Shown: piece after piece, positions 1,973 to 30,110 of the stretch
Layout: the number at the start of each line of letters is the position of its first letter
Numbering within the stretch: the stretch's first letter is position 1
IMG/VR virus record: IMGVR_UViG_3300028837_001967
Span: 1-31,269 of that record
DNA: 31,269 nucleotides
Direction: 5' to 3' (one strand)
DNA from: a virus
Translations under genes and position numbers: made by a program
The notes under the pieces: model-generated
The model's input: only the letters and a program-made list of their open reading frames with translations
What the model was told of the DNA's origin: nothing
Databases searched by the model: none

Positions 1973-2371
1973 ATGAGTAGAGGATATGGATTTGGTGAGG
2001 GCGAAGGCGCTTTAATTCTTCCCTTTGATATACATGAGACAGTCTCCGGGACTCCTGATTTAAACGAAGACGATCATATGGACTATGCTGTGGGTATTAC
2101 CGGGAATAATGAAGCCGGAGACCTTGCCGATGGCAAATGTTTGCTTGGGAAGGTTATGGGGTTTTCTCCTGACGGACTTACGGTAATGGTTCAAGTAAAG
2201 GGTATTGTTAAAGATATTCCTTACGCCGCTGGCACTTTACCTGCGGTTGGCGATATGGTTCAGGGTTCAGCCGAAAATGAGGTTGATATTGCAGTTGAAT
2301 CTACTTTAACTCATCGCGGCTTGGTTCTTAATGTTGATGCAACCGCCGTAACCTGTGATATTCTGTTATAA
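1973..2371 (+). CDS. Capsid decoration-like protein
   Basis: 132 residues, preceded by GAGGAAA, so the start is well supported. The protein is acidic and rich in Gly, Val and Asp, predicts mostly beta-strand, and has no membrane segment. Length, position between a scaffold-like gene and the major capsid gene, and Gly/Val-rich small-barrel character match head decoration or stabilisation proteins (DUF2190-like or gpD-like in role). I assign it by context and composition, not by a diagnostic motif. Confidence 0.5.
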   Translation: MSRGYGFGEGEGALILPFDIHETVSGTPDLNEDDHMDYAVGITGNNEAGDLADGKCLLGKVMGFSPDGLTVMVQVKGIVKDIPYAAGTLPAVGDMVQGSAENEVDIAVESTLTHRGLVLNVDATAVTCDILL

Positions 2372-2512: not shown

Positions 2513-3571
2513 ATGGATTTAACAAAAGCAAAAGATTTAAGAGAAGATGTCATAAAGCTTCAAGGAAAACCCGAAGCTAAAATGTATATTGAGGCGGAAC
2601 AACAGAAAATTACGGTTTCTCAGTTGCTTGAACTTCGCGATCCTTCTGAACCGGATAGTAAACTCGATGCTTTTCAACGCCAGTTTTTCCTTGAGGGAAT
2701 CTCGCTTGGTGATAATCCAATGAAGGTTTCTACCTACGGTGATCTTGCTAATTCGAAAATCTCTCATCTTGCTCCTGAATTTGTGCGCCGCCAGGTTATT
2801 AAAGGTATGCAGATGGTCCGGACCTTTAAAGGTTCTCTTATCGCTGTTGAAACCCGGGTTGAAGGAAATCAGTTTCAACCTATGCACCTGCGAAATAAAA
2901 CTACTAAGGGTGGGAGTATGAAAGTAACTGGTGAAGGTGCAACAATGACCACTCTTGAAATATTCTACGGTGAAAAAACAGTTGATGTTAAGCAATATGG
3001 AAAAGTTCTTAATGTCAGTTATAATGTCGTGAAAAGAAAAACCCTGACCGAGTTTCAGTTAATCCTTTGGCTTGTTGGGAAAAACCTTGAAAATGATCAG
3101 ATTGCGGAAATCGAAGCTGTTGTACGTGCCGGGGATGGAACTGTCGGCGCTGCAGGAAATACAACTGCCGCTAATTCTGACGCTGCCAATATGGTTTACG
3201 GCGATTTTGTTGATGTTCTTATTGATTTCGACCAGCTTTTTGATCCTGATCGCGCTTTTATGACCGATGCTCAGGCAAAACCGTTTCTGAAATTATCTGA
3301 AATTAAAGATCCGCTTGCATTTACGTCTTTTACCCAAAAAGGAATGTTACCAACTCCGTTTGGGTTTACTATTGTACGTAATCCGGGCGGAAGTGATACT
3401 TATACTTCTTTTATCGATCATCAATTTGCAATTATTCGCGGTGTCGAAACCGCATTGATGCTTGAAGCAGATAAAATTATTGCCCGGCGCATGGATGAAG
3501 TATCAATTTATGAAGCGATTGCCTATGCTGTAGCCGTAGATGAAGCACGGCGGACGCTTGATTTCTCGTAA
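2513..3571 (+). CDS. Major capsid protein
   Basis: 352 residues, soluble, no signal peptide. The layout is that of a tailed-phage coat protein: a helical N-terminus, a mixed alpha/beta core with a strand-rich centre (about residues 120-180), a variable Gly/Ala/Asn loop (about 205-220) and a C-terminal helical segment rich in Ala, Glu and Arg (about 300-345). Its place after scaffold- and decoration-like genes, and the terminator straight after it, both suit the most abundant virion protein. No shortening or frameshift is visible. Inferred to have the HK97 fold. The prohead protease that would process the head is 12 kb downstream. Confidence 0.7.
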   Translation: MDLTKAKDLREDVIKLQGKPEAKMYIEAEQQKITVSQLLELRDPSEPDSKLDAFQRQFFLEGISLGDNPMKVSTYGDLANSKISHLAPEFVRRQVIKGMQMVRTFKGSLIAVETRVEGNQFQPMHLRNKTTKGGSMKVTGEGATMTTLEIFYGEKTVDVKQYGKVLNVSYNVVKRKTLTEFQLILWLVGKNLENDQIAEIEAVVRAGDGTVGAAGNTTAANSDAANMVYGDFVDVLIDFDQLFDPDRAFMTDAQAKPFLKLSEIKDPLAFTSFTQKGMLPTPFGFTIVRNPGGSDTYTSFIDHQFAIIRGVETALMLEADKIIARRMDEVSIYEAIAYAVAVDEARRTLDFS

Positions 3572-3594: not shown

Positions 3595-3632
3595 AAGCCG
3601 GTTCCGGTGCATTGCCGGTTCCGGCTTTTTTT
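3595..3632 (+). terminator. Intrinsic terminator after capsid gene
   Basis: AAGCCGG (3595-3601) pairs with CCGGCTT at about 3620-3626. Inside, a CCGG/CCGG stem follows a 2x2 internal loop and closes a 7-nt loop. A run of seven T follows at once. It is likely to reduce transcription from the head genes into the fibre genes, so that capsid is made in excess. Confidence 0.85.
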
Positions 3633-3675
3633 ATGAATGTTGCGCATGGCTGATTTAAAAGAAGGAAAAAAGAAA

Positions 3676-4095
3676 ATGAAAAAGCTTATTGTAATATTAA
3701 TAGGGATTTCTTTAGTGCTTGTTTTCTTTCTCGGAGCCGATTTTTATGAATCCTATTATGCAATTAATTTCCCCATGAACCTTCAAACATATATTAATAT
3801 GTCTGAATGGGTTTTTGATGACACTACTGTATTTACTGCCAGTACAACGGCTTTTTATCTGAATAGCGCAGGTACAGGACAAATACTTGCCGTTAATTAC
3901 GATATAGCTGATACTCTGGCAATAAGTCTGAACGATGGCACAAACTGGTTAAAACTTCCGCCTAATATGGGTAATGTGGTTTTGGCTCCGGCAAATTATG
4001 ATAGTATTCATGTTAAATTTCTTGGCGTTTCGGGCGGCGCTGATACTACCGGAATTCCAACAATAGGCTGGACGATTTACGATAGCATTCACTAA
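3676..4095 (+). CDS. Secreted or membrane-anchored small protein
   Basis: 139 residues. Residues 1-22 form a Lys-Lys start and a strongly hydrophobic stretch (LIVILIGISLVLVFFLG), that is, a signal peptide or membrane anchor. The rest is rich in Thr, Asp, Ser and aromatic residues and predicts beta-structure, like the other secreted proteins in this block. The frame is open further upstream (ATG at 3637), but AAGGA about 10 nt before 3676 and the signal peptide favour this start. Unknown function; perhaps a surface or fibre accessory protein. Confidence 0.55.
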   Translation: MKKLIVILIGISLVLVFFLGADFYESYYAINFPMNLQTYINMSEWVFDDTTVFTASTTAFYLNSAGTGQILAVNYDIADTLAISLNDGTNWLKLPPNMGNVVLAPANYDSIHVKFLGVSGGADTTGIPTIGWTIYDSIH

Positions 4096-4111
4096 ATAAG
4101 GAATAGTTATA

Positions 4112-5329
4112 ATGAGACGAATATTGTTTATAGTTTTTATGACTTTAATGTTTACTTCTGGTGTTTCAGCACAATCCGGGATCATGCCTGGAACTAGTCT
4201 TTATATTCCGGCAACTATTCAAAATATTGTTGGACTTCTGGATTCGCTTGCTGCAAAATTGGATAAATCAACTAATCAGACTGTAAGTGGACAAATTGGC
4301 TTTAGCGATACTACTGGATTTGTTGTCATAATTGCATATTCAGGTGATAGAATAGATGTAATTGATAGTGTTTTTGTTGATCCTTATTTAGAAGCTGTAT
4401 ATTTCAAAGTTTCCGGGTATGCCGATATAGATTCACTCTGGGGACTTGATACGCTGTCTACAGCTGTAATTAAAGCATTGATTACATATACTGATGAAAT
4501 AAAGGCTGCTACTAATAATAGGGTTGTAAACTTTCCTGATACGTTTAGAGTTGATGTAATTGATGCCTTGAATTCAGAAGTTGTTGTTGTGGTTGATTCA
4601 ATCGTCGCCCCTTATACAACAGCTTCAAGGGTAGCTTATTTTAATGCTAATAATATACTGGTCGCACATGCGAATGTAAGCGATACTGAACTCGGATATC
4701 TTGATCTTGCAACTTCCAATATTCAAGCACAGCTTGATTCGAAATTATCGCTTGGGGCTATTGAAGATACTCTTGCTAATAAACATACTCATATAGTAGT
4801 TGATAGCATGACATTAAAAGGTCAAACGAAGCCGTTTTTACCCGTCTGGTTCGGAGATTGGGTTTCGTATCCCGATTACGATCCAGCAAATGCAGATAGT
4901 GTTGAAATCTCCGCACCGCTTGATTCTATCGATGGGGGATTATTTGCTTCGGTACACGGCAGTCACCCGGACGATACCAGCAGCGTATTGAATACTATTG
5001 ATATATATGTTCAGAGACAGGTAAAGGAAGGGTATGTCAGCATTGATAGTGTTTCCGGTTATGTCAAGACAGGAAACGCTTCGACGGATACCAATTATGC
5101 GAAAATTGAAATATGGCAATATGAACCAAATGGGGGAGTTCTAACATTAAGAGATAGCACAACGATACTCGCAAATACAAGCTGGACACATTTTGCTTTG
5201 TCAGATGCTGCGTTGAGCAATATAACAAGATGGGAATTCTTCTGGATAAGGGTGAAACTCGCCTCGCGGGCAGTTACACAATATGCTTGGGTAAGCCGAA
5301 TGAAAATTTATTGGAAAGAGGGAAGCTGA
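4112..5329 (+). CDS. Fibre-like protein with signal peptide
   Basis: 405 residues, start supported by AAGGAA. Residues 1-21 are a textbook signal peptide with an Ala-x-Ala-like site before Gln (GVSA/Q). Much of the chain is Ser/Thr/Asp/Val-rich beta-type sequence. Around residues 185-230 is a segment of the form TELGYLD...SNIQAQLDSKL followed by NKHTH, a pattern common in phage tail-fibre shafts. The C-terminal part (about 240-405) looks like a beta-sandwich head. Predicted receptor-binding or fibre protein; the signal peptide is unusual for a virion fibre. Ends two bases before the next gene. Confidence 0.6.
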   Translation: MRRILFIVFMTLMFTSGVSAQSGIMPGTSLYIPATIQNIVGLLDSLAAKLDKSTNQTVSGQIGFSDTTGFVVIIAYSGDRIDVIDSVFVDPYLEAVYFKVSGYADIDSLWGLDTLSTAVIKALITYTDEIKAATNNRVVNFPDTFRVDVIDALNSEVVVVVDSIVAPYTTASRVAYFNANNILVAHANVSDTELGYLDLATSNIQAQLDSKLSLGAIEDTLANKHTHIVVDSMTLKGQTKPFLPVWFGDWVSYPDYDPANADSVEISAPLDSIDGGLFASVHGSHPDDTSSVLNTIDIYVQRQVKEGYVSIDSVSGYVKTGNASTDTNYAKIEIWQYEPNGGVLTLRDSTTILANTSWTHFALSDAALSNITRWEFFWIRVKLASRAVTQYAWVSRMKIYWKEGS

Positions 5330-5331
5330 TA

Positions 5332-7014
5332 ATGCGATACTTCGGTAGGCTCAGTATAATAACATTATTGCTTTTGTTTCCGATTGCGACGTGGGGACAA
5401 GTTGATACGGTTAAATCGACTATAATAAAAGACGGTACTTTGTGGCATACGAATCAACCCGTATTTGCGACTGCAAGGGATAGTACAGATGCAAATGGTT
5501 ATGATTCAAACGATATACTTATTGGTTTAAATACGGGTTATATGATTTATCGAGGTTATTTGTGGTTTGATCTATCTGGACTTTCATTAACAGGAAGAAC
5601 TATCGATAGTGTTGTAGTGAAACTCCACGGTGATGGTGATGACAGTACAGATGATTTTAATATCACAAGCCGTTCCGTATGGTATACAGAAAACCCTTCA
5701 GGTGTAGCCGCTTATCCTGAATGGAATGATTTTGATGGTTGGGCTGCTTCGGGGGCTTATGGAGGAACTGCACTGACGAATGATTTCAACTCAGCCGATT
5801 TTTCCGATGAAACATATAATGCAATTAAATTTACATCGGCGGGGGTTGATTCGGTTGATGCACACAAAGCAGATACTTTAAAAATAATACTTTTGAGCGC
5901 TGAGGATGTTAGTTCCAGTGAACCGGCAAATGCTGAGTATGTAACTTTTGAGGCTGCAGATGTAACGGGCGAAGAACCGAAATTGGTTATATACAGCTCG
6001 GCAGCACCGGCAGGAACACCAACCATAAGTCCGCCCACTTTTCAGAAAATAAGAACCGATAAGGTTACGGTTTTGTGGGATACTACTTTAAACGGCGCAA
6101 CTATTGACAGTTCTGCGGTGTTTATCAGCGATTTGCCAGGAGATACGACAGGGCTTGTGGCTTGGTATCCGATGAATAAAGGTGCTGGCGATTCGAGTTT
6201 GCATTCTAACGACGGGACGGTTGATGGTGCAACATTGGTAATGGGTGATACTTTGTTGGGCGGTGGTGCATACAGTTTTGATGGGGATAATGATTATATT
6301 GATTTGGGTTTCCAACAAAATGGAACAAAAACGATTTTAGTATGGACTGAAGTAAAATTAGATACAGATATGCATATTATTACAACCATGGACGGTGGAA
6401 CTAACGAAGGATGGGGTATTTTATACAAGTCAACTGGAAATGTTATAAGAAGTGATTGGAATGGTCAATATGATGTGAATTCATTAGAATCCAGTGGTAT
6501 TAATTTAAATGAACGGATTAATATTGCTTCTGTATTGGATGGAGCAGATTCAAAATTATATATTAATGGTGTTCTCGAAGATAGTAAAGATTTAGGTTCA
6601 GAGGTTGAAAGTTTAAGTAATATAAGAATATCAGGGAGATGGGATGGTGTAAATACAGGGTCGGCTCTGTTGTTCGATGGCACAATAGACGAACCAAAAT
6701 TTTTCGGCAGAGCATTAACCCAATCAGAAATTTTGGCTTACGTCAATGAGACGAGAAGTGCCCGTCGGTCTGCTGGTACAACGGGATTAACGGTGCAGAC
6801 GGCGGATACATTGAGCGAAGGCACGAAGTATCAGTTTTCCGTATTCGGATTTAATGCTGATTCTTTAATTGCTTTTTCGGATGGCGTATATATGAAAACG
6901 AAGTATATAGTCAATGAATCGCTGGGCAGATTACTATATCGACCCGATGATTATAAGCCGAATGATCCTAAACAATGGAATCAGAAAATGATAAGTTCGG
7001 TTAAGATAAGGTAA
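5332..7014 (+). CDS. LamG-domain adhesin/fibre with signal peptide
   Basis: 560 residues from the ATG at 5332, which has GAGGGAAG upstream; the frame is open earlier but lies within the previous gene. Residues 1-22 are a signal peptide. About 25-223 resemble the DNRLRE/CBM96-like beta-sandwich (WFDLSGL, then LVIYS at the end). About 230-270 start an FN3-like unit. About 274-475 are a laminin-G/concanavalin-like domain (GLVAWYPM, SFDGDNDYI, LYINGVL, DGTIDEPKFF). About 480-545 appear to complete the interrupted FN3 unit. LamG and CBM96-like domains bind glycans, so binding to the cell surface is the likely role. Confidence 0.7.
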   Translation: MRYFGRLSIITLLLLFPIATWGQVDTVKSTIIKDGTLWHTNQPVFATARDSTDANGYDSNDILIGLNTGYMIYRGYLWFDLSGLSLTGRTIDSVVVKLHGDGDDSTDDFNITSRSVWYTENPSGVAAYPEWNDFDGWAASGAYGGTALTNDFNSADFSDETYNAIKFTSAGVDSVDAHKADTLKIILLSAEDVSSSEPANAEYVTFEAADVTGEEPKLVIYSSAAPAGTPTISPPTFQKIRTDKVTVLWDTTLNGATIDSSAVFISDLPGDTTGLVAWYPMNKGAGDSSLHSNDGTVDGATLVMGDTLLGGGAYSFDGDNDYIDLGFQQNGTKTILVWTEVKLDTDMHIITTMDGGTNEGWGILYKSTGNVIRSDWNGQYDVNSLESSGINLNERINIASVLDGADSKLYINGVLEDSKDLGSEVESLSNIRISGRWDGVNTGSALLFDGTIDEPKFFGRALTQSEILAYVNETRSARRSAGTTGLTVQTADTLSEGTKYQFSVFGFNADSLIAFSDGVYMKTKYIVNESLGRLLYRPDDYKPNDPKQWNQKMISSVKIR

Positions 7015-7017
7015 ATT

Positions 7018-7647
7018 ATGGATAAAGAAGTACATGGTTTTTTCAGAGGATGGTTGATTGTAATTCCGATTGCTATTTTGATTGATATAATAATAATTTG
7101 CGTATTGTATAGCAAACTCAATGCTCAATGGTATGACAATCCAGTAAAAGAAGCATTTCTGTGGGCTACGGATACGGAGAAATGGTATGTGCCGGGTCCG
7201 GTGACGGTGTTCTTTGCGGCTTCGATTTGCGGGTTCACGGCGGATGCGCTGCGCGACATGGAAAACTGGCAGGATCCGCAGCCGAAATTACTTGGCAGAC
7301 AGGGACAGTGGCACGGCTGGCGGGATGGTTCTAATATCGGGTATGGCTGGACCGCGATGATCCTGGCACGTCAGATAATCGTTGACGATATGAGTTATAA
7401 GGAAGCGTTTCTGACACTTGTAAAAATGGGCGGAGTGAGATTTCTTACGAGAGCGTTCTACAAGATCAATAAAGGCGGTCTGGGTGCGTATAACGACCCG
7501 CTGTACAATAAACACGCTATAGTGTACCCAAAGGTGTCAATAGACCCCTTGAGCTTCACAGACGGCTATATTTCAACAGGTAAATGGACAACGCCGTTGT
7601 TAGACCTGGCGGTATCCGGTTTGTTAATTATAATTAGAGAGGAATAA
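7018..7647 (+). CDS. Membrane protein of unknown function
   Basis: 209 residues. One strong membrane segment near the N-terminus (about residues 11-33), a possible second hydrophobic stretch at about 58-72, and a hydrophobic tail at about 192-206. Between them is a soluble part rich in Trp, Gly and Tyr (GQWHGWRDGSNIGYGW). I recognise no family. With the next two genes it forms a group of membrane proteins; its middle is clearly GC-richer than neighbouring genes, which suggests a separately acquired cassette. Possible roles: lysis, superinfection exclusion or host-membrane remodelling. Confidence 0.55.
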   Translation: MDKEVHGFFRGWLIVIPIAILIDIIIICVLYSKLNAQWYDNPVKEAFLWATDTEKWYVPGPVTVFFAASICGFTADALRDMENWQDPQPKLLGRQGQWHGWRDGSNIGYGWTAMILARQIIVDDMSYKEAFLTLVKMGGVRFLTRAFYKINKGGLGAYNDPLYNKHAIVYPKVSIDPLSFTDGYISTGKWTTPLLDLAVSGLLIIIREE

Positions 7648-7651
7648 TTCA

Positions 7652-7957
7652 ATGGATGCTTTACTTGGAATTTTCGGAACAGACTCATTTGCTACATTCG
7701 TGGCTTATGCGCTTTCGTTATTGTTTGCTGGATCGCTCGCAATATTTCATAAGGGAATAAGGTATTTGCCGATTATATGCCGGGTTCTGAGTGTCGGAAC
7801 CGTTGCCAGAGACTTTTTCAAGACTCTTGTCAATGCGTATAAGGATAAAACGTGTACACCGGAAGAAGCGAAGCAGATATTGGCAAAGGGTGAAAAATTT
7901 CTTAAGGCGGTCATTAATTTTGGAGCGGCGGGTGTACCTGACGAGGTAACACAATAA
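7652..7957 (+). CDS. Small membrane protein, holin-like candidate
   Basis: 101 residues. A hydrophobic N-terminal half (about residues 10-32, and a second weaker segment at about 38-55) is followed by a charged, helical C-terminal half. Size and topology suit a holin, but no conserved holin motif is visible and the amidase is 9 kb away. Its stop overlaps the start of the next gene (TAATG), so the two are coupled. Confidence 0.5.
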   Translation: MDALLGIFGTDSFATFVAYALSLLFAGSLAIFHKGIRYLPIICRVLSVGTVARDFFKTLVNAYKDKTCTPEEAKQILAKGEKFLKAVINFGAAGVPDEVTQ

Positions 7958-8178
7958 TGAAATTTCCAGACTTTAAAAAACTGTGGAAATACTTCAACTT
8001 GTACCGAATCGTAAGTGATATAATTAAGAATCCAGAGAAGTTGAAGCAGAAAAAGGCTTTGCGAAAACTGGCGCTGGCTCTATTTGCGATTCTGGCGACG
8101 GTCGGATTCATTGAGCCGGAACTGCTTGAGAAGATCAAGGATTTTGCGTTGCTGTTGATCGAGCAGCTCGGAGTCTGA
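7957..8178 (+). CDS. Small amphipathic membrane protein
   Basis: 73 residues: a basic N-terminal half (Lys-rich, about 1-38), one hydrophobic segment (about 39-53, LALALFAILATVGFI) and a short amphipathic tail. Coupled to the preceding gene by a TAATG overlap. Holin, antiholin or membrane adaptor are possible; no family recognised. Part of the GC-richer cassette. Confidence 0.5.
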   Translation: MKFPDFKKLWKYFNLYRIVSDIIKNPEKLKQKKALRKLALALFAILATVGFIEPELLEKIKDFALLLIEQLGV

Positions 8179-8210
8179 ATAATAGTAAACATAAGAAAGA
8201 GGAGTTTGTT

Positions 8211-8717
8211 ATGAAACGCTTTATTTTTGTATTGTTAATAATTGCTCTGTTTATTCCTATTATAGCAGAAGCGCAACTCAAGGACCCTGCTGTTCCGCGT
8301 AGCTGGTGGGATGAACTCAAGACATGGATTGTGCAGTTAACCGATTATCAACCAATGATATTTCTTAGAGATTCACTTATAATTTCTCCTGATGTTGTTG
8401 ATACTTTAGCTGTATGGACATTTCACCGGGCAACTCAAATTCAAGAAGTGGAATTGTCATTAGAATCACTAACAACTTTTGATAGTACAAGAATCTTTAT
8501 TATGCACTCAACCGGGGCTGATACTATAATATCTATTCCAGCAGATACTTCTGCCGGGTATGGCGCTTCTGGCGGTATAAAACACCTTTTAAATTCTACG
8601 GCTGTTAATATCGCTGCGGCTTCATCCTGTACTTTGGTTGTGCAAAGTTTTGTTGGGTCTGATAATACATTTATTGATTTTGCCCTGTCAATATTTTCAA
8701 AAACAAGGACATATTAA
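8211..8717 (+). CDS. Secreted protein of unknown function
   Basis: 168 residues, start supported by a GAGG-type site (AGAGGAG). Residues 1-22 are a signal peptide ending Ala-Glu-Ala before Gln. The mature part is beta-rich with alternating Val/Leu and Ser/Thr/Asp, and its spacing of short strands recalls a single beta-sandwich domain. No catalytic motif. Its stop is directly followed by the ATG of the next gene. Probably a surface or fibre component like its neighbours. Confidence 0.55.
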   Translation: MKRFIFVLLIIALFIPIIAEAQLKDPAVPRSWWDELKTWIVQLTDYQPMIFLRDSLIISPDVVDTLAVWTFHRATQIQEVELSLESLTTFDSTRIFIMHSTGADTIISIPADTSAGYGASGGIKHLLNSTAVNIAAASSCTLVVQSFVGSDNTFIDFALSIFSKTRTY

Positions 8718-9230
8718 ATGGCTGTTCCGACCGTACAATTTCGTCAGTTAGATATAACTGGCACTGAACCGGCAAACCGTACTACAAGCGGCGCAGTCGT
8801 TAGCGCTGCTGTTAATCTTGATCTCGGTGAAGCGAATATTACAAACGGCGTAGCTACTCTTGGACCGTTCTGCGTTATTTATCGGTGTAGTAATTTACAG
8901 GGAAATGCCAAAATTGAGAATATGAAGTTTGCACTTACGGCTAACTCTGCCTTAAATGATAATGCTGTGTTTTACTGTGATATTACAAGTACATGGACTC
9001 AGAATAAATCGGCTGCGCAAGTCGCTGCAGGTACTCCGGGTCCATGTCCATCTGGGTATCCCAGTACGGCTAATCTAACGAAAATTGACGGCGGCGATAT
9101 TGACGGACTTGCTCATGCTCATACTTCGCAATATATCTATTTTACAGTGCAGGTTGCAGCTGATGAATTAGTGGGTGAAGATAAAGGCGGTTCGAGTTTG
9201 TCGTTTGGCGTGCGCGCTGATTATGCTTAA
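8718..9230 (+). CDS. Predicted virion structural protein
   Basis: 170 residues, no signal peptide. AAGGA lies about 9 nt before the ATG. Sequence is Ala/Thr/Asn/Gly-rich, predicts beta-strands and has few charges, as in phage tail or head-surface proteins. Three Cys are present but not in a metal-binding pattern. Unlike its neighbours it is not exported, so it may be the part that stays with the virion. Family not recognised. Confidence 0.5.
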   Translation: MAVPTVQFRQLDITGTEPANRTTSGAVVSAAVNLDLGEANITNGVATLGPFCVIYRCSNLQGNAKIENMKFALTANSALNDNAVFYCDITSTWTQNKSAAQVAAGTPGPCPSGYPSTANLTKIDGGDIDGLAHAHTSQYIYFTVQVAADELVGEDKGGSSLSFGVRADYA

Positions 9231-9251
9231 ATTACAAAAAGGTTGTAATAT

Positions 9252-11417
9252 ATGAAGAATTGGCAGAAAATGCTTGGAATATTAATGTGGATCACTATTG
9301 CCAGTGTAGCTGTTGGTTCATTAGGTATTAATGGAAATAGTTCTGAATACGAAAAAGAATCGGGCTATTTTTTTTGGGCTTTATCAGCAGATAGTATTGA
9401 AGTTGTTTCTACTGTTCAAGGTTATCAATCTAATGATGTTACTTATAATACAGCACGCGATAAAACCACCGCGGATCAAGCTACAAATTCTCTTGGTCAA
9501 AGTGATGGTGAATACGTTAGTAGGTTTTTTGGTTATTGGGATTTAACAGGTTATACATCAGATACTATGACGATTGATTCAACTGCTGTTCTTTATAATA
9601 TTCAAACTGATCTTTCCGACACAGACTTTGATTTTGCCGTATATTCTGCTTATAGTGGAATAACTTTTGAAACAACAGATTTTCCAAAGTTTAGCGGTCG
9701 TGGAACAGGTGGCGCTGCACATACTCCGTTAATTTATACGGAAACACATAATACAGCCGGTAGAGCTACTTCTAAATGGTATCGGCTTGCCGATGTAAAT
9801 GCGTTAAAAGATAGTGTAACTGCAACACTTGGCAGTAACCTTCAATTTGTTTTTCTTAGCAGCCGGGATATATCGGCTACTGCACCGACACAAAATGAAA
9901 TAATAGATATTTATAACAATGGAACTCCAAAGCTTAAAATTTATTACACACCAACAGCGCCTGTAATTCCGACAAGTCTTTCAGCGACAGATAGTACATT
10001 TCGGGATTCGGTTGTCGTTACATGGACAAAGGGCACGAATTGTACAGGTTATATAATTGATACGTGTGCATTGTCTGGGGGGGTTTACGGACAGCTTGAT
10101 TCTGTTGGTGATGTTACTGCTTATATTCATTCTTCTTTAAATCCTGGTGTTAATTGGTGGTATAGATTAGTTGGTGTAAAAGAAGTCGGCAGTACTAATT
10201 ATTATACAGATACTACAGCAGCAGAAGAAGGTTCAACTGATCCATCCGCTTATTTTATAGCATCTATTTTAGATTCTACTCATAATACCGTAATAGTTTC
10301 GATTGATACAGCACTTCTCGGTGAAGCTGAATGGGATAGTTTTAAAATCTTTAGTAGTATAGATAGTTCAACTCAATATTGGAGTTATACTCTCGATACG
10401 TCAATTACTATCGATACATTGAGTTCATTAACTGATTATAGTTTTTTAATGAAAGGTTATAATGCCGATACTGTTCGGACTCTTTCGAATGTTGTAACTG
10501 TTACCACTGATTCTCTCCCAAAACCTTATGAATTTGTGCTTGACGATCTGGATACAAATAAAGTGATGCTATCTTTGATCGATACTTCGGGTTCACTTGA
10601 TTTAACTCTTATTTTTATTGATACTTTTGGGATTCTATCTAATGATACTTTAGAATTTAACGGCACAAATCCCGATACTTTACGCGATACCCTCTCTGCC
10701 GGGGGATTACCGGATTCATTAGTTGCTATTGAAGTTATATTACTTAATGCCAGTGGTGATACAACTGTTACCGCTAATGATACGACTTTGCAATTTTATC
10801 TTATGGCTGCTCCTGTCCCTGCTGTGACTGCTATCGATACGTCCGATACATTAATTCAAATTATGTTTTCAACAACTGATATTAATCCCGATAGCGGCGT
10901 TTATTATCAGTTATTAGATAGCACGCTTTCTATTTTTATTTCTCCGGACGGCGACACTGTTGGAATTGATACGTCGTGGTTCGTAAAAGCAACCTGGGAT
11001 ACAGTTGATTATCATCCGCTTAGTCCTAATACACTACATGAACTTTATGTGAATTCCCGTAATTCCGATGACGTTGAAACTGGATTTTTATATTATGATT
11101 CTCTCTGGACATGGGCGCAAACTGTTAATGTAGATACCAGTATTGCCGATGCTGTTGATTCAGTAACAATTAAAATAGGATTGTCACCGCGAGATAACCC
11201 TTCTTATACCTTTTATGCTCTTGAAGATTCTATAACTGGTTTTGCCTATGATCTTGATAATATGACATTTGGAACTGGTGTTGTTTCTATCGATTCTACC
11301 TGGCAATGGTATACCTATGATGAATGGGGAGATTCAACCGGAGTTGATATTACTGTCGCTGAAAATACTCGGTATGTTTTACGGTTTTATTCAAAAGACG
11401 GAAATATAAGAGAATAA
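9252..11417 (+). CDS. Large FN3-repeat secreted fibre protein
   Basis: 721 residues, start supported by AAGG. A hydrophobic stretch at residues 8-26 acts as signal peptide or anchor. About 48-235 form a DNRLRE/CBM96-like module that mirrors the one in the protein at 5332-7014 (conserved WDL near the start and PKLKIYY at the end). From about 240 onward come several fibronectin type III-like repeats with recurrent W/Y and DT/DS motifs. Asp-Thr and Asp-Ser pairs are very frequent. Likely an elongated adhesin or host-range determinant. No enzyme motif seen. Confidence 0.65.
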   Translation: MKNWQKMLGILMWITIASVAVGSLGINGNSSEYEKESGYFFWALSADSIEVVSTVQGYQSNDVTYNTARDKTTADQATNSLGQSDGEYVSRFFGYWDLTGYTSDTMTIDSTAVLYNIQTDLSDTDFDFAVYSAYSGITFETTDFPKFSGRGTGGAAHTPLIYTETHNTAGRATSKWYRLADVNALKDSVTATLGSNLQFVFLSSRDISATAPTQNEIIDIYNNGTPKLKIYYTPTAPVIPTSLSATDSTFRDSVVVTWTKGTNCTGYIIDTCALSGGVYGQLDSVGDVTAYIHSSLNPGVNWWYRLVGVKEVGSTNYYTDTTAAEEGSTDPSAYFIASILDSTHNTVIVSIDTALLGEAEWDSFKIFSSIDSSTQYWSYTLDTSITIDTLSSLTDYSFLMKGYNADTVRTLSNVVTVTTDSLPKPYEFVLDDLDTNKVMLSLIDTSGSLDLTLIFIDTFGILSNDTLEFNGTNPDTLRDTLSAGGLPDSLVAIEVILLNASGDTTVTANDTTLQFYLMAAPVPAVTAIDTSDTLIQIMFSTTDINPDSGVYYQLLDSTLSIFISPDGDTVGIDTSWFVKATWDTVDYHPLSPNTLHELYVNSRNSDDVETGFLYYDSLWTWAQTVNVDTSIADAVDSVTIKIGLSPRDNPSYTFYALEDSITGFAYDLDNMTFGTGVVSIDSTWQWYTYDEWGDSTGVDITVAENTRYVLRFYSKDGNIRE

Positions 11418-11432: not shown

Positions 11433-12422
11433 ATGCCCAGACGTGGACCCGGAGTATCTTATGACGTAACTACTCCCGAAGGAACTCTTGATACAGAGTT
11501 TTATTCTGTCTGTGATGTTATTAAATGGTTTGCTACAACTGCAGAAGTACGTCAAATGTTCGGACCCGAGGAACTCGTGCTTAATGCTTCTAATGAGCAA
11601 CAAATATTATCTGGCGCAGAAGAAAATTCTCTGAGGTTTACTAATCTTGAAGTTGATAGCGAAGCAGTAAAAAAGATCACTGAATCTGCTCCGCCTGATA
11701 CATTGACAATTACAGATTATACGGCTCAATCATTGACTCATTCAAGACTTGTTAATGGCAAAATCAGAATCTTTGACTCTGTTAGCGAAAGCACACTGCT
11801 TGAAAACGGCGTTGATTATGAAGTAGATTATTATAAAGGAACAGTAACTCTCACTGAACCGGATTTTACAGCCGGAGATGCTTCTGCCGGAGCCGCGGTC
11901 TTGCCTACATTTGATACTGAGTTTTATTGTGAAGTTGATGTACAAATAATTGTTATTGTTCACTATAAATATTATGCTCTTTTCGTTAGAGGAACTGATT
12001 ATACTATTAACTATACATTGGGACGGATAGCTCGGAAGTTTGGCGGTTCTATTGAATCCGGTGAATTGGTTTATATTGATTATAAAATAACCCAATTAGC
12101 CGATAATGCCTTGATTGAGCTTATTATCGACATGACACATGAATGGATATTAGCTCAAATTGGTACAGCTTATAAAGATTCTACTGCTAAAAAACTTCGT
12201 TATGCTGAAATTAACCTTTCTGTATCTAATATAGCACGTTCGATTGTTTCAAAAGTTATAAATGAAGGACTTGCCGGATCGCCAAATGTTCATAGTATTA
12301 CCAGGAATTTAAAACGGATTGAAGAATCTTTCAGAGACTTGGGAATGCAGTTTTTACAATCTTATTTATCTTATGGCATTACTTATGCCGGGAAAGTCAA
12401 ACAAAATGCCGTATTCGATTAG
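11433..12422 (+). CDS. Connector- or neck-like structural protein
   Basis: 329 residues, start supported by AGGAAA. No signal peptide. Residues about 125-210 contain two copies of a strand motif of the form G-x-DY-x-v/i-(D/N)Y-x-x-G-x-(v/i) (VDYEVDYYKGTV and TDYTINYTLGRI). The C-terminal third (about 220-329) is helical. A beta-domain followed by a helical domain just before the packaging genes suits a head-tail connector, adaptor or baseplate-type protein, but no known family is identified. Its 3' end overlaps the next small gene. Confidence 0.5.
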   Translation: MPRRGPGVSYDVTTPEGTLDTEFYSVCDVIKWFATTAEVRQMFGPEELVLNASNEQQILSGAEENSLRFTNLEVDSEAVKKITESAPPDTLTITDYTAQSLTHSRLVNGKIRIFDSVSESTLLENGVDYEVDYYKGTVTLTEPDFTAGDASAGAAVLPTFDTEFYCEVDVQIIVIVHYKYYALFVRGTDYTINYTLGRIARKFGGSIESGELVYIDYKITQLADNALIELIIDMTHEWILAQIGTAYKDSTAKKLRYAEINLSVSNIARSIVSKVINEGLAGSPNVHSITRNLKRIEESFRDLGMQFLQSYLSYGITYAGKVKQNAVFD

Positions 12423-12621
12423 AGAAGCCTTTAAAAATATTGGAGTTAATCCGGTTAAAAAAGTTAATGATGAAATTTATATTTCTGAATTACTTAAATC
12501 CATGCGGCTTTATCTTGCGATTTCCCGGTTTGATAAAGCAGAAGAAATAAGGGAGAAAATATTGGTTGTTTGTGGTGAAAATAGTATGGAAATTCCACAG
12601 GAATGTAGAGTAATAAAATGA
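12406..12621 (+). CDS. Small helical protein before terminase
   Basis: 71 residues from the ATG at 12406, overlapping the end of the previous gene; an in-frame ATG at 12385 is an alternative. Mostly helical with mixed charge, no Cys motif. Its stop overlaps the next ATG (AAAATGA), which shows tight coupling to the small terminase gene. Unknown function; possibly a packaging accessory. Confidence 0.5.
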   Translation: MPYSIREAFKNIGVNPVKKVNDEIYISELLKSMRLYLAISRFDKAEEIREKILVVCGENSMEIPQECRVIK

Positions 12622-13109
12622 GTACAAGCAATATATTAGGCGTTAAAATTAATGATGGTAAAGATGATACGAATGTCTATTTGAATAAAAGAAAAAAACC
12701 GCCAGTAACTAAAATAGAACATTTGAGTTTAAGACAAAAATATTTTGCTGAATTGCTTGCCGATCCTCAGAAATATAAACTTACAAATACAGAATTTGCT
12801 GAAATGCTCGGAGTGTCCCAGAATACTATTACTGCCTGGCGCCGACTTGAGCCTCTTCAATTACTTGCTTTGAAATTGTATAAGAAATATCATCATATTA
12901 AACATGCAAGATATATCCATGAAGCTGTCGCTAAACGTGCGCAAGAAAAAGGTGGGGCTGCCGATGCCCGTTTGTATCTTGAACATTTGGCGCGGACTTT
13001 AGGTGAAGATATAGGACGTTCTGGTGGCAATGGCAATACTTTTAATGTTGATAAAATGATATTGGTTGTTCGAGAAGAAAGCAAAAAGAATAATGGTCAA
13101 AGAAAATGA
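12618..13109 (+). CDS. terS: Terminase small subunit
   Basis: 163 residues. Residues about 36-75 form a helix-turn-helix of the small-terminase type (LTNTEFAEMLGVSQNTITAW, then RR), followed by a helical, basic central part and a short Gly/Asn-rich tail. This protein recognises phage DNA and starts packaging with the large subunit. Position directly before the large terminase, with overlapping frames, supports the call. Confidence 0.75.
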   Translation: MSTSNILGVKINDGKDDTNVYLNKRKKPPVTKIEHLSLRQKYFAELLADPQKYKLTNTEFAEMLGVSQNTITAWRRLEPLQLLALKLYKKYHHIKHARYIHEAVAKRAQEKGGAADARLYLEHLARTLGEDIGRSGGNGNTFNVDKMILVVREESKKNNGQRK

Positions 13110-14520
13110 AATAACAGAAATAACAGAGTCTAAAATTGCGATGGAGTTTCTTACCTGTTCTCGCGATCCATGGCACTTTATTTCTAATTATGTTTATACT
13201 TTGCATAAAACTATGGGGACTCAACCATTTCCAAAATTTGAATATCTTAAGAATCTTGTAAATGATTTTAGTTCCGATAGACTTATTCTTATTCTCAAAT
13301 CCCGGCAAATGTTGGCTACCTGGACCGCTGTTGCTTATGCTATATGGGAAGCAATTTTTAAACCCGGGGATATACTTTTTATTTCTAAACGCGAAACCGA
13401 AGCTATTGAACTTATATCGCGGGCAAAATTCATTTATAGAAATCTTCCTTTCTGGTTACAACCTAAAATGACGTGCGATAATAGAAAGGAAATTAACTTC
13501 GGTAAAATTGATTCCCGGATTTTTAGTGTTCCTAATAGTCCTGATGCGGTCCGGACCTACTCTCCACGAAAAATATATTGGGATGAAATGCCTCATACTG
13601 CATTTGATGTTGAAATATGGGAAAGTATTGCTCCTGTAATTGATAAAGACGGCGCTTTTGTCGGGATCGGTACTCCTAACGATCCTTTTACTGTACATGC
13701 AGTTTTATGGGGGGATAATGCAAATGATATGAGGAAAATTAAAATTCATTGGACGCAACACCCTGAAAAAAATTTAGAGTGGCAAAAAGAGCAGAAAAAA
13801 CTTTATTCAGATGAAGCCTGGCAAAGAGAACAGGAACTTGATATTTCAAGCAGAACTGAATTGATATATACAAATTTCTCCTCTGAAAATGTTAAATCTG
13901 ATATTGGTGATTATAAAGCTTTTCGCCTTTTCCGCGCTCTTGATTTCGGATACCATACTCCTGTTTGTTTATGGGGATATATAACTCCTGAACTTCATTT
14001 GCATATATTCCATGAGTGGTATGGTGAAGATAATACAGTAGAAGAACTGGCACTTGCAATTAAAGATGTTGATGAATCCCTCGGAATTAATGAAAGTATA
14101 ATTGAAATGAGCTATGGAGATCCTCAAGGTGAAGCAGTTACCGATGAAGGTATAAGCGCTATTGATAAAATCAAAAGAGTTATTCCTGATTTCAAGTTTT
14201 CTTCTCGCAAATCCAATATTATGCCCGGTATCGATATGGTAAGGACGAAAGTAAAAGATGCCAGGGGTAGACGCGCTTTTACTGTATATGGAGAAATAGA
14301 TGTCCGAGGTAATATTTTTAAAGGTTGTAAAAGATTAATTCGTGATGTTCAAAGGTATCGGAAATCCAAAAACTCTGAAATGCCAATAAAAGATGGTATT
14401 TGTGATCATGGCAATGATGCTTTACGATATTTAATTATTGGGATATTCGGGCTTTCTGATGAAATTAATCCCTATAGTGTATTGAGTCCAAAAGTTGTAG
14501 GATTAATAAGGGCAAGTTAA
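13093..14520 (+). CDS. terL: Terminase large subunit
   Basis: 475 residues from the ATG at 13093; an earlier in-frame start lies deep in terS. The ATPase half has KSRQMLAT at 69-76 in the place of Walker A, a Walker B-like YWDE at 162-165 and the coupling motif GTPN at 193-196. The nuclease half has the acidic residues expected of an RNase H-like fold: D284 (LDFG), D343 (GDP) and a C-terminal DHGNDALRY. It drives DNA into the prohead and cuts it. The Walker A-like segment lacks the usual Gly-Lys. Stop and next start overlap (TTAATGA). Confidence 0.85.
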   Translation: MVKENEITEITESKIAMEFLTCSRDPWHFISNYVYTLHKTMGTQPFPKFEYLKNLVNDFSSDRLILILKSRQMLATWTAVAYAIWEAIFKPGDILFISKRETEAIELISRAKFIYRNLPFWLQPKMTCDNRKEINFGKIDSRIFSVPNSPDAVRTYSPRKIYWDEMPHTAFDVEIWESIAPVIDKDGAFVGIGTPNDPFTVHAVLWGDNANDMRKIKIHWTQHPEKNLEWQKEQKKLYSDEAWQREQELDISSRTELIYTNFSSENVKSDIGDYKAFRLFRALDFGYHTPVCLWGYITPELHLHIFHEWYGEDNTVEELALAIKDVDESLGINESIIEMSYGDPQGEAVTDEGISAIDKIKRVIPDFKFSSRKSNIMPGIDMVRTKVKDARGRRAFTVYGEIDVRGNIFKGCKRLIRDVQRYRKSKNSEMPIKDGICDHGNDALRYLIIGIFGLSDEINPYSVLSPKVVGLIRAS

Positions 14521-15866
14521 TGAAATTTAATTGGTTTAAAAAGAAAAAGAATAAAGGAACTGTAAATAATAATAGTTCTGTTCAGCTTATGACTTCGGAA
14601 AAACCTTCAAAAGATCGGTATATAGAACGTTCTATATCTGACCTCGATACTTTTTATCGAGATTTAGTAAAAGAAATTGCTATTCTCGGCGCTTGCGTGA
14701 AGAAATGGAAAACATTGTGCTCAACGCCTTCCCGATATGTATTTGAGGGTAAAGATAACGAAATAGCAAAAGCTGAGGAGGTTGTTGCTACACTTGATGA
14801 CCATCTTTATTCTGATCAGGGAACTCGCGAAGGCGGAATTCAAATAGTGACTAATTCATTTTTTACCGAACTCTTTACAGTAGGTCGATTTGCATTTGAA
14901 ATTATTCCTACTAAAACTGGTGATGGGGTTGACCGGATTCATCAATATAATACTTATGAAGAAATTCTTTGGGTAGAAGATCTGAAACGCGGAACAAAAT
15001 ATCCCTGGATTCAAAAGTTTCCGCTTGAGAATGAATATCGTCGACCTTCTCCTTTCTTTTATTATAATGCGCTTAATAAATCATTCCGGGACCCTGCAGG
15101 ACACAGCCTGCTTTATTCTATTGAATGGATCGCTCGTATTGAAGAACAGTTGCTCCTTGATATGGCTTGCGCTTCTCATAATGTCGGATATCCGCGTGCG
15201 CACATGAAAATTAAACCGCCTGAACCTTTCTCTGGTGAATCCAGAAATGATTATATAAAACGTATGGACAATTATTTTGACAATACCGTAAATAACTTTA
15301 AAAAGATTGAAATTGATGATAATATTTTTACATGGGATTCTATAAATATAGAAATTGTTGGTGCTAAGACCGCCAAAACCGGGTATCCCTGGCGTGAAAA
15401 TGTAGAAGTAACCGCAGAAGAAATTCTATCTGCTTATGGATTATATCCTTGGGTACTTGGACTTTCTCATGGCGCTACAAAAAATTGGGTTGAAGTTCAA
15501 TATAATACACTTCTTACCGATATTGCTAATTTACAAACAGAAGCTTCTGCAATCGCTGAATTTATTGTAAATCTTGAGCTTAAGCTCAAAGGAATTAATG
15601 TAATTGCTAAATATATATTTGAAGAAAATGAAAACCCTAATATTGATAAAAGAAGGGATGCTGAAGCTACTCATTTCGGAACAGTTCATAATAAATTTCT
15701 TACCGGATATATAGATAAAAATACCGCGGCGCAAGAATTGGGATATAATAAACCTTTTAATAATGATAGAATAGAATTGAATAAAAAGGAAAAGAGCAAT
15801 GGGAAAGATAACGGAAAAGTTGAAGAAGAAGAAATTTTCGGGCAGAAAAAAATTGAAACTTATTAA
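14520..15866 (+). CDS. Portal protein
   Basis: 448 residues, start overlapping the terL stop. It has the usual portal plan: basic N-terminus, alpha/beta clip and stem region, and a long helical crown (about 330-400). The spacing of aromatic and acidic motifs (SDLDTFYRDLVKEI near 45, later SAYGLYPWVLGLS) is like the DUF935/Mu gp29-type portals. The portal forms the dodecameric channel at the capsid vertex. The last 68 bp also encode the start of the next gene in another frame. Confidence 0.75.
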   Translation: MKFNWFKKKKNKGTVNNNSSVQLMTSEKPSKDRYIERSISDLDTFYRDLVKEIAILGACVKKWKTLCSTPSRYVFEGKDNEIAKAEEVVATLDDHLYSDQGTREGGIQIVTNSFFTELFTVGRFAFEIIPTKTGDGVDRIHQYNTYEEILWVEDLKRGTKYPWIQKFPLENEYRRPSPFFYYNALNKSFRDPAGHSLLYSIEWIARIEEQLLLDMACASHNVGYPRAHMKIKPPEPFSGESRNDYIKRMDNYFDNTVNNFKKIEIDDNIFTWDSINIEIVGAKTAKTGYPWRENVEVTAEEILSAYGLYPWVLGLSHGATKNWVEVQYNTLLTDIANLQTEASAIAEFIVNLELKLKGINVIAKYIFEENENPNIDKRRDAEATHFGTVHNKFLTGYIDKNTAAQELGYNKPFNNDRIELNKKEKSNGKDNGKVEEEEIFGQKKIETY

Positions 15867-16005
15867 AATAAATTGCCCTCGTTGTTCAGGATATTCCGAT
15901 AAGAAAACTATTAATTGGGTTACTAAACGAAAGGGTTTGTGTCCTCATTGTGGCTATGTATTGGATTATGAAAGATTGAAAGGAATTATTCATGGAGAAG
16001 TATAG
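15799..16005 (+). CDS. Zinc-ribbon protein (Com-like)
   Basis: 68 residues, start backed by AGGAAAAGAG and lying inside the portal 3' end. The N-terminal third is very basic; then CPRC and CPHC pairs (about 20 residues apart) form a rubredoxin-type zinc ribbon. Small zinc-ribbon proteins near Mu-like head genes (Com) regulate translation of a DNA modification gene, but no such gene is nearby, so only nucleic-acid binding is inferred. Confidence 0.6.
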   Translation: MGKITEKLKKKKFSGRKKLKLIKINCPRCSGYSDKKTINWVTKRKGLCPHCGYVLDYERLKGIIHGEV

Positions 16006-16732
16006 TAATTATAACTTGTTAGGCTCTATCGGAAAGTCCAATCTCTCAAAAGAAGAAGTTGATACTGATATTGCTTTTATTAACAAAAACTTTGATCTTC
16101 CTACTGAACTTTCTGCTGATGATGTTTATATTCGTGAATGCTGGCTTACTGGTAATGCCATTAATTGTTATTTCGGACGGTTCCGGGATAAAGATTTAAA
16201 GATTTTATTAGAGTTGGTAAACGGTGCTCCTCTTATGGATAGTCATAAGAAAGGGGGATATTTAGGACTTGGACAAATTGAATTACCTCTCGGTAAATTT
16301 TTTGGTGGTTCTGTTAGATCCAGAATGACAAAACTTTTCGATGGTACTGAAAAAAAAGTTAAATATATTGTACCGAAGTTTTATTGGATGCGAAATGTTT
16401 CTGTTGCAAATGATCTTAAAACAAATATTGATGGTGGAATCTGGAATCAGGCAAGTATAAGTTGGACCGCTGAAAAAGTTACCTGCTCGGTTTGTGGTAA
16501 AGATATTCGTTTATGTAATCATGTTCCCGGGGAAAAAGATTCAAAAGGTGAAACTATTTTTTATTATTATGATAATATTCTCGGAGTAAGTGAAGGTTCA
16601 ATCGTTTATGCCGGTGGACATCCCGGAACCGGGTTTGGATTGGCTTATAACTCTGAGAATCCTATAAAGAAACGGATTATTACTCTTAAATATAACGATA
16701 AGATTATTAAATATGGAATGCCGGTTAAATGA
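15992..16732 (+). CDS. Prohead (capsid maturation) protease
   Basis: 246 residues. Key positions of the HK97-type serine protease are visible: H85 in PLMDSHK and Ser in QASISW (S155/S157). Straight after comes a Cys/His cluster CSVCGK...CNH (C165, C168, C175, H177), which is seen in a subset of phage prohead proteases. It would cleave scaffold and capsid N-termini during head maturation. It follows the portal, as usual, but the major capsid gene is not next to it as it would normally be. Confidence 0.7.
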   Translation: MEKYSNYNLLGSIGKSNLSKEEVDTDIAFINKNFDLPTELSADDVYIRECWLTGNAINCYFGRFRDKDLKILLELVNGAPLMDSHKKGGYLGLGQIELPLGKFFGGSVRSRMTKLFDGTEKKVKYIVPKFYWMRNVSVANDLKTNIDGGIWNQASISWTAEKVTCSVCGKDIRLCNHVPGEKDSKGETIFYYYDNILGVSEGSIVYAGGHPGTGFGLAYNSENPIKKRIITLKYNDKIIKYGMPVK

Positions 16733-17151
16733 TAGAAATGGAAATACTTAAGGATTTTTTGTTAATTACAGTATCCTCTGCGACTTTGTTAACAATCTTT
16801 ACAACATTTTTATGGAAATTGGTATTTAAAGAGAAAGTAAAGGAAATTACTGAAAAAGTGCAGGATGATTTAGATACTATAGTTGCTGGAATTGAAGTTA
16901 CTGAATCAAAAAGAGAAAAAGAACGGGACGAAAAGGATGAGAAAATGATAAATGATTTAAGAGATTTCACATCACGGAAAATTGCAAATAATAATGTATT
17001 AATTAGCAAAGATTATTTTCCGTTTAAAGATGGTGTCATTATGCAAACAGAATTTACAGGAGTTAAAAAAACTTTGGCTCAAATAGAAAATAAGATAGAT
17101 AAAATATTTGGAATATTAAGTAAAAATAAAGATAAAAATGCAAAAAGTTAA
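16729..17151 (+). CDS. Membrane-anchored coiled coil, spanin-like
   Basis: 140 residues. One N-terminal membrane segment (about residues 10-31) followed by a long Lys/Glu-rich coiled coil (about 35-85) and a second helical stretch (100-135). This is the architecture of inner-membrane spanins (Rz-type) and of some holin-associated proteins. Directly upstream of the amidase, with overlapping ends, so it most likely belongs to the lysis module. No embedded outer spanin frame was found. Confidence 0.55.
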   Translation: MIEMEILKDFLLITVSSATLLTIFTTFLWKLVFKEKVKEITEKVQDDLDTIVAGIEVTESKREKERDEKDEKMINDLRDFTSRKIANNNVLISKDYFPFKDGVIMQTEFTGVKKTLAQIENKIDKIFGILSKNKDKNAKS

Positions 17152-17641
17152 AAGTATAATTCTCCATAGCTCTGATTCTCCTTTCGGTAATGCTTTAATG
17201 ATTGATAAATGGCATAGGGAACGCTGGAATACTGGAATCGGATATTCTCTTGTAATTCCTAACGGATATCCGACAAAGAAAAATATTGAAGAATTAAATT
17301 ATATTCCTTTTCTTGACGGTTCAGTTGAGGTTGGACGTGTTAATGATTTTAATGAATGGATTGAACAAAATGAAGTTGGCGCTCATGCCCTGGGGTATAA
17401 TCAAGATTCTCTTGGAATTTGTTTTATTCTCAAAAAAGGTGTACGTGAATTAACCAAAAAACAGCTAAGATCAGGAATTGAAGCAGTACAAACATTATTG
17501 ATAAAAAATAGACTTGAACCCACTTCTGTTCTCGGACATTATGAAATTAATCCAAAAAAAACTTGCCCGGATTTCGATGTTGAAAAGTTTAGACAGATGT
17601 TGATCTTAGAAAGAGAAATGCTGGCTAATACTTTTTACTAA
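17138..17641 (+). CDS. N-acetylmuramoyl-L-alanine amidase (endolysin)
   Basis: 167 residues, amidase_2/PGRP fold. Zinc ligands fit the T7-lysozyme pattern: H10 in IILHSS, H134 in LGHY and C143 in KTCPDF; GAHALGYN (H83) is also typical. No signal peptide, so release depends on a holin or spanin-type partner. Cuts the amide bond between muramic acid and the peptide in the cell wall at lysis. It is the last plus-strand gene and overlaps the end of the convergent minus-strand gene by 4 bp. Confidence 0.85.
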   Translation: MQKVKSIILHSSDSPFGNALMIDKWHRERWNTGIGYSLVIPNGYPTKKNIEELNYIPFLDGSVEVGRVNDFNEWIEQNEVGAHALGYNQDSLGICFILKKGVRELTKKQLRSGIEAVQTLLIKNRLEPTSVLGHYEINPKKTCPDFDVEKFRQMLILEREMLANTFY

Positions 17642-28654: not shown

Positions 28655-28841
28655 CGATATACTGATTAATTTCGTCTTTAGGAAATTGAATGAATTTACC
28701 CAACTTGGTAAACGGAATTTGCTCTTTTGCTGTTAATACGGATAAATAACTGTCAGAAATATTCAGCAGTTTGCAGACTTGATCCCGGGTGTAGAAATTA
28801 TCCGGGTTGTTATAAAAGGCGCTTTCGTCAAGACTTAACAT
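28596..28841 (-). CDS. xis: Excisionase-like HTH protein
   Basis: 81 residues. YTRDQVCKLLNISDSYLSVL, then FTKLGKFIQFPKDEINQYI is the MerR-like winged helix of the HTH_17/AlpA/excisionase type. It begins inside the integrase stop (ATGTTAA) and overlaps the nuclease start. Position beside the integrase suggests recombination directionality factor; a repressor role is also possible. Confidence 0.7.
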   Translation of the reverse strand: MLSLDESAFYNNPDNFYTRDQVCKLLNISDSYLSVLTAKEQIPFTKLGKFIQFPKDEINQYIVEKTKTVHVRTAINNLKTR

Positions 28842-29602
28842 ATATTGTCCTCGAACTTTTTAATTGCGTCAAATTTATGTTTATGAGTAGTATGTATATA
28901 TTTCATTGTTGTTTTAATATCGGAATGGCCCATAAGCTCTTGGACCACTGGCAGGGGAATTTTAAGATCGTTTACGAGGTAACTGCAAAAAGAGTGACGC
29001 AAAAAGTGGACACCCTTTTTGACATTGTTAGGGATTTTATCGTAGATCCCAGTGCGTTTGAATAAATTGTTAATACTTTTGTGAAAATGATAGGCTTTAT
29101 GCCCGTTTGTGCTTGTAAAAATGAACACTTGACCAGAAGTCATATGGTTTATTTTCTTTTTGAGAAGCTTGCGAATTATGTTGTCAATAGGGATAACCCT
29201 GCTTTTGTTGTTCTTAGGTCCCCAGTCCTCGTGGGGCTGAATAAATATCAGGTTCTCTTTTAAATCAATATCTTCGGGACGTAGATTTGAAAGCTCTGCT
29301 TTTCGCATTCCAGTGTGATATAATATCGTGATGATCTCACCTAAATATTCAGAGCAGTTATTAATCAATGTAGCAATATCTGCAGGACGGAGAAAATAAG
29401 ATGAAGTATAGTTAGTCTGGATGACTGGTTTACTTAGCTTGTTAATTTTATTTGAGTTAGCAAATCTGTATTTAATGGCATAATTGTATATCTTGCCGAA
29501 TGCGATGTGTTCATGACGTAAAGTAGAAATGGAAATTCTGTCTTGAACTCGGCGTTTGTAAAAGTAATGTTCCAAAGTCTCAATGGAAATCTGCGATAAC
29601 AT
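28835..29602 (-). CDS. int: Tyrosine integrase, N-terminally truncated frame
   Basis: 255 residues from the first ATG. Catalytic residues are all present: R100 (TGMRKAEL), K133, H199 and R202 (VHFLRHSF), H226 (MGHSDI) and Y235 (MKYIH). So the catalytic domain is intact. The frame stays open for 21 codons upstream of the ATG and reads like the first helix of a core-binding domain (STYAYYG...LGNR) before an in-frame TAA at 29666-29668. Normal integrases are 300-400 residues. It would recombine attP with a host tRNA gene. Confidence 0.85.
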   Translation of the reverse strand: MLSQISIETLEHYFYKRRVQDRISISTLRHEHIAFGKIYNYAIKYRFANSNKINKLSKPVIQTNYTSSYFLRPADIATLINNCSEYLGEIITILYHTGMRKAELSNLRPEDIDLKENLIFIQPHEDWGPKNNKSRVIPIDNIIRKLLKKKINHMTSGQVFIFTSTNGHKAYHFHKSINNLFKRTGIYDKIPNNVKKGVHFLRHSFCSYLVNDLKIPLPVVQELMGHSDIKTTMKYIHTTHKHKFDAIKKFEDNIC

Positions 29603-30000: not shown

Positions 30001-30110
30001 TCTGAAATAAGCTCTCCTGACTGCTTGACTGGCAGTCAAGAGGTCGTCGGTTCGAACCCGTCCAGCTCCACAATTCAATAGTGGAACGTTAGGGAAACTT
30101 GCGAGTTAGA
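29975..30110. repeat. Three 10-bp GCGARTTAGA copies around attP
   Basis: Copies at 29975-29984 (GCGAATTAGA), 29991-30000 (inverted) and 30101-30110 (GCGAGTTAGA). The first two make the terminator; the third lies across attP and pairs perfectly with the second. They could be antiterminator parts or integrase arm-type sites. Confidence 0.7.
30024..30070 (+). other. attP: attP core: 3' half of tRNA-Ala(GGC)
   Basis: CTTGA-CTGGCAG-TCAAG is an anticodon arm with anticodon GGC. A 5-nt variable loop, a T-arm (GTCGG, TTCGAAC, CCGTC, one mismatch), CAGCTCC with U70 (the partner of alanine's G3) and A73 follow. No 5' acceptor or D-arm precedes it, so it is not a whole tRNA gene. Such 3' halves beside an integrase are typical attachment cores in which the phage restores the disrupted host tRNA. 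Confidence 0.8.

Follow-up and report, generated by a model that had tools for sequence, protein, structure and literature searches.

Predicted Sec signal peptides on fibre- and adhesin-like proteins encoded beside the terminase genes of a phage genome fragment

Assembly of tailed-phage virions is assumed to take place in the cytoplasm, where fibres and adhesins are usually synthesised without a signal peptide. The window analysed here, the whole of an IMG/VR virus record (linear, 31,269 bases), raises the question of why five proteins encoded inside its virion gene cluster (3676, 4112, 5332, 8211 and 9252, named after their first positions) should be made, unlike these, as apparent export precursors. 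An earlier note on this DNA had pointed to their export signals and to the lack of tail genes, and had tied one to the other.

Predicted export signals within the late unit

The plus strand of the window carries a late unit composed of cement, major capsid, the block of exported proteins, TerS, TerL, portal, protease-like and amidase genes, and the minus strand carries helicase, nuclease, integrase and small genes (Table 1). Located between the capsid and TerS-TerL-portal genes and co-oriented with them, the block begins 104 nt downstream of the capsid gene, with an intrinsic terminator in between. Its intergenic gaps are mostly 0–32 nt and run on into the terminase-portal genes, with close packing from 3676 to 17641; no clear terminator was found after 11417, and a promoter scan at the block gave matches at chance level only. 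The strong terminator is likely to set the dosage of the capsid gene versus the downstream genes, and a terminator in this position is already known in phages, e.g., in T7 after gene 10. On the present analysis, it does not by itself set the block apart as a separate unit. The minus-strand unit ends with a gene (18032–18874) whose product by inspection is Gp37/Gp68-like (DUF5131-type).

Table 1. Annotated features of the window; the sign ^ marks predicted cleavage sites.
Feature	Positions	Strand	Basis
Capsid cement/decoration protein	1973..2371	+	phrog_4588 7e-5; Phage_cement_2 0.015 (below cut-off)
Major capsid protein	2513..3571	+	phrog_3922 3e-30; 80 relatives in IMG/VR
Intrinsic terminator directly 3' of capsid gene	3595..3633	+	stem-loop then seven U, z = -3.2
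Small protein, signal peptide or N-terminal anchor (FLGA^DFYE)	3676..4095	+	no family match
Exported fibre-like protein (GVSA^QSGI), motif TELGYLDLATSNIQAQLDSK	4112..5329	+	predicted signal peptide and shared motif
Exported adhesin-like protein (ATWG^QVDT), DNRLRE and LamG	5332..7014	+	PF13385 4e-12; NF033679 (DNRLRE) 1.2e-5, below that model's cut-off
Membrane protein, function unassigned	7018..7647	+	N-terminal hydrophobic segments; no family above chance; no phage match
Small hydrophobic (holin-sized) protein	7652..7957	+	sequence
Small protein, hydrophobic C-terminal segment	7957..8178	+	sequence
Small exported protein (AEA^QLKD), beta-rich by inspection	8211..8717	+	predicted signal peptide
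Non-exported protein	8718..9230	+	no signal; no family above chance
Exported adhesin-like protein (ASVA^VGSL), DNRLRE-type region and FN3-like repeats	9252..11417	+	predicted signal peptide
Non-exported protein, possible neck/tail component	11433..12422	+	NF052337 tail tube 6e-6, residues 184–219 only
Small terminase subunit (likely)	12618..13109	+	phrog_24579 5e-5
Large terminase subunit	13084..14520	+	phrog_5989 2e-23
Portal protein	14520..15866	+	phrog_3753 3e-28
Prohead-protease-like protein	15992..16732	+	phrog_16951 1e-14; aligns with portal-capsid intervening gene in L003, L004
Amidase endolysin	17138..17641	+	phrog_822 1e-19
Tyrosine integrase	28835..29602	-	PF00589 4e-27
tRNA-Ala(GGC) 3' half, attP-like, beside integrase	30024..30071	+	few differences from tRNA-Ala(GGC) 3' half

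Signal peptides were called with our own rule-based predictor rather than SignalP, after a check against five established signal peptides of E. coli, and cleavage sites with a score blind to the +1 residue. In agreement with the earlier note, all five N-termini were predicted to be canonical Sec signal peptides, in which a charged n-region precedes a hydrophobic core and an AXA-like site. Longer open reading frames (ORFs) opening upstream at 3637 and 5230 mask the better starts at 3676 and 5332; a Shine-Dalgarno-like motif is clear at four of the five starts and weak at 9252. When applied to the 80 capsid relatives, the same predictor fired on 1 of 555 plus-strand ORFs of at least 100 aa, a strong contrast with five out of five which is nevertheless not a formal probability, the relatives not being independent and many being gut-prophage-like. 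Gln stands at +1 in three of the five window proteins under this unbiased site score (P about 2e-4 for residue frequency).

We consider it highly unlikely that these hydrophobic N-termini are anchors or packing segments without export, or prediction artefacts. The segment in 3676 could be a membrane anchor, and the predictor is rule-based; against this, five such N-termini with n-region charge, h-region and AXA-like sites lie in one block, with four clear ribosome-binding motifs, and Gln at +1 recurs in most of the exported proteins of an unrelated prophage (see below), which argues for selection by signal peptidase and glutaminyl cyclase. Judged from sequence, export of the five proteins is likely.

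The earlier note had also ascribed glycan-binding or FN3 domains to several of the five. This held for 5332, with its LamG and DNRLRE matches, whereas the FN3 match in 9252 was sub-threshold (0.0094), and neither 3676 nor 8211 had a family match above chance or any fibre-type module that we could see. Homology of 9252 with 5332 extends over 233 aa (2e-10) in the DNRLRE-type region. Fibre-type character is also present in 4112, whose motif is common to annotated phage tail proteins (with weak E-values) and occurs in fibre ORFs of 15 IMG/VR loci. AF2 models made without alignment were unusable for both 8718 (pLDDT 43) and 11433 (pLDDT 32).

Tail genes and capsid relatives

No tail gene was recognisable within the window with PHROGs, Pfam or NCBIfam, the single hint being the tail-tube-like stretch of 36 residues in 11433. 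To this extent, the lack of tail genes put forward earlier was borne out; it does not establish their absence from the virus as a whole, since the linear record is a fragment, as indicated by a zinc-ribbon-like ORF (31077–31268) that is cut at its right end. The head module of the window is homologous to those of three other loci, and from our reading of their sequences L004 has a sheath-like gene after the capsid gene, and L038 and L054 have long tape-measure-like genes. In all three, a tail module holds the slot that the exported block occupies in the window.

This arrangement would fit a virus without a normal tail, in which an appendage is assembled outside the cell from exported proteins. 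We regard this as very improbable: the record is truncated, with a gene cut at its end, 11433 retains its short tail-tube-like stretch, and in the prophage described below exported fibres and tail genes are kept apart, so that the tail module of the window phage may lie outside the window. A tailless virus was therefore set aside, the prophage itself having tail genes.

The search for related genomes with the same block, which the earlier note had proposed, returned little. Searches for close relatives by major capsid protein, TerL, 5332 or 11433 recovered an identical 9.3 kb fragment only (L002), and no homologue of the exported block was present among the 80 capsid relatives.

The left end of the window (1–1440) is long and non-coding, with a GC content of 48% in the first kb and about 33% thereafter, and contains a 16-nt inverted repeat (316–331/357–372). 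No match to phage records was obtained for positions 1–1450, and this end may be chimeric or a long control region.

Fibres with predicted export signals in unrelated phages

A second fibre-motif scan yielded 79 loci, 73 of them with a complete 5' end, and a signal peptide was predicted in only one of these 73 ORFs. The phage in question (IMGVR_UViG_2894272399_000002, hereafter G006) is an 81 kb, integrase-bearing, complete Bacteroidota-type prophage unrelated to the window phage. Its minus strand encodes a tape measure (phrog_9959, 2e-166) and a capsid protein (phrog_29), and its plus strand encodes eight proteins with predicted signal peptides (16144, 26314, 26765, 29936, 34495, 36722, 38771 and 39170). 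The last seven genes lie directly upstream of TerS-TerL-portal, as in the window, and exported fibres and tail genes form separate units on opposite strands. The exported set includes a beta-helix tailspike (PF13229, 4e-11), a fibre with collagen and polysaccharide-lyase regions (phrog_5073, 5e-23; PF14099, 5e-13), and a tail fibre, 39170, that shares its motif with 4112 (1.3e-5); modules are common to 26314, 26765 and 29936. A comparison of the exported proteins with annotated phages gave no match. With the score blind to +1, Gln occupied that position in seven of nine signal-peptide ORFs of G006 (the eight above plus 7876 on the other strand); in 26314 and 36722, cleavage at an AXA-like site a few residues downstream would expose Gln.

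A second case is L102, a podovirus-like contig of 25 kb: its virion genes end with a single exported fibre, for which the predicted signal peptide is MKRWLLFLLVISIPILVYG^ETNQ. The fibre ORF of L102 spans 3412–6486, and the true start at 3574 gives the signal peptide, which the longest-ORF start hides; automatic annotation may therefore miss such cases.

Most other phages with a 4112-type motif have no signal peptide. In phage phi38:1, fibre genes without one lie upstream of TerL-portal, and none of the structural proteins checked had one; fibres are therefore usual at this location, and the signal alone is unusual. The observation that exported proteins sit within a virion gene cluster and call for an explanation was supported, and the arrangement is repeated in at least two phages that are not related. 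The proposed tie to a missing tail was not sustained: G006 combines tape measure and capsid genes with a larger exported block, L102 is podovirus-like, and the window is a fragment. From these sequences, the phenomenon appears more general than the window alone shows, and Sec-exported phage fibres are best read as a recurrent but rare class.

Gln at +1 of signal peptidase I substrates, the Q-rule, is a feature of Bacteroidetes (PMC5837995), and its presence in three of the five window proteins points to a Q-rule host. Shine-Dalgarno motifs precede 17 of 26 starts in the window versus 4 of 67 in G006, and no match to a Bacteroidota-type promoter pattern was found in the window. The host is possibly a Q-rule lineage outside classical Bacteroidota, e.g., Ignavibacterium, listed at 77% in the Q-rule paper (PMC5837995). 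Small ORFs lie beyond the tRNA-Ala(GGC) half. No exact copy of this half was present in the genome and viral collections searched; one deltaproteobacterial MAG with few differences was unconvincing as an indication of the host.

Possible roles of the putatively exported proteins

The block probably encodes phage proteins of fibre or adhesin type, made as Sec precursors and working outside the cytoplasm. Its genes would be expressed late together with the packaging genes, and the precursors would cross the inner membrane via Sec and be cut by host signal peptidase I, leaving the mature proteins to act outside the cytoplasm. The elements behind this reading are the signal peptides, the gene order, the fibre, lectin and DNRLRE domains, and the recurrence in G006 and L102. 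Given export, there is a nearly even chance that the fibres, once folded in the periplasm or at the cell surface, are loaded onto tails or particles when lysis breaches the envelope, and so still constitute the receptor-binding outfit. Behind the signal peptides of the window proteins, no common virion-anchor domain was demonstrated. More tentative is the general proposal that some tailed phages may build their receptor-binding apparatus across the envelope, the fibres being Sec-exported, processed periplasmically by host signal peptidase and glutaminyl cyclase, and then joined at lysis to particles built in the cytoplasm.

It is also quite possible that the proteins never become virion parts and remain with the infected cell instead, in its periplasm or on its outer surface. 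Such decoration could block superinfection, keep progeny from being trapped on debris or change adhesion. The signal peptides with Gln at +1 would direct the proteins to the periplasm or beyond, and there are precedents: lambda Lom, encoded between the tail spike and tail fibre genes, is a signal-peptide-bearing protein of the outer membrane (PMC12309495), and Porphyromonas phages carry small Q-rule proteins proposed to modify the host envelope (PMC10367356). In addition, G006 has LamG-like and hub-like tail proteins without signal peptides (from our reading of its sequence) for virion use, so the adhesins of its virion may be proteins other than the exported fibres. Against this, the block appears to be embedded in the transcription unit of the packaging genes, unlike a moron that stands alone with a promoter and terminator of its own, and the G006 set includes textbook fibre and tailspike types.

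The polysaccharide lyase and the beta-helix protein with a colanic acid degradation match in G006 would suit a further role, that of free enzymes or lectins released before lysis, e.g., stripping capsule or matrix for progeny escape. For the window this is unlikely, as its proteins resemble binding modules (LamG, DNRLRE, FN3) rather than enzymes.

Among known systems, Caudoviricetes tail fibres and tailspikes (TELGYLDGVTSNIQAQL-type, collagen, beta-helix) share motif and domains with the exported proteins, and fibres such as those of phi38:1 share the slot upstream of TerL-portal, but normally without a signal peptide. Phage DGR target proteins likewise lack signal peptides according to a DGR study (PMC6199706). 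Lambda Lom resembles the present proteins in its signal peptide and location among tail genes, but it is a single gene for a beta-barrel outer-membrane protein, whereas the window and G006 have fibre arrays. The Porphyromonas gingivalis phage proteins (Nixviridae, e.g., BK068106) are likewise phage-encoded with signal peptides exposing Gln, and one is encoded close to the tape measure within the head-neck-tail module; unlike the window fibres, the one inspected is single, small (about 150 aa) and of unassigned function, and no fibre array was found beside the terminase of BK068106. These proteins and Lom were all that our literature search on exported tail fibres returned, and in the literature searched, with partial coverage, no report of multi-gene exported fibre arrays was found. 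Small Q-rule exported phage proteins had already been reported in Porphyromonas phages.

Fibre and tailspike arrays with secretion signals beside the terminase of unrelated phages would mean either an extracytoplasmic assembly step or host-surface remodelling with virion-type adhesins.

Lastly, 6H gp05 (DUF4468), BT-TP2 gp18 and G006 16144 likewise combine a Sec signal, Q near +1 and a place in the virion gene cluster, but are small single-domain proteins and not fibres. The G006 gene (16144–16527; L191 4144–4527) adjoins the tape-measure gene, and its product is weakly related to the small exported proteins encoded at 25892–26338 of BK068106 (where the annotation reads 'Q-rule protein') and 15543–15929 of PQ571279 (Bacteroides phage BT-TP2).
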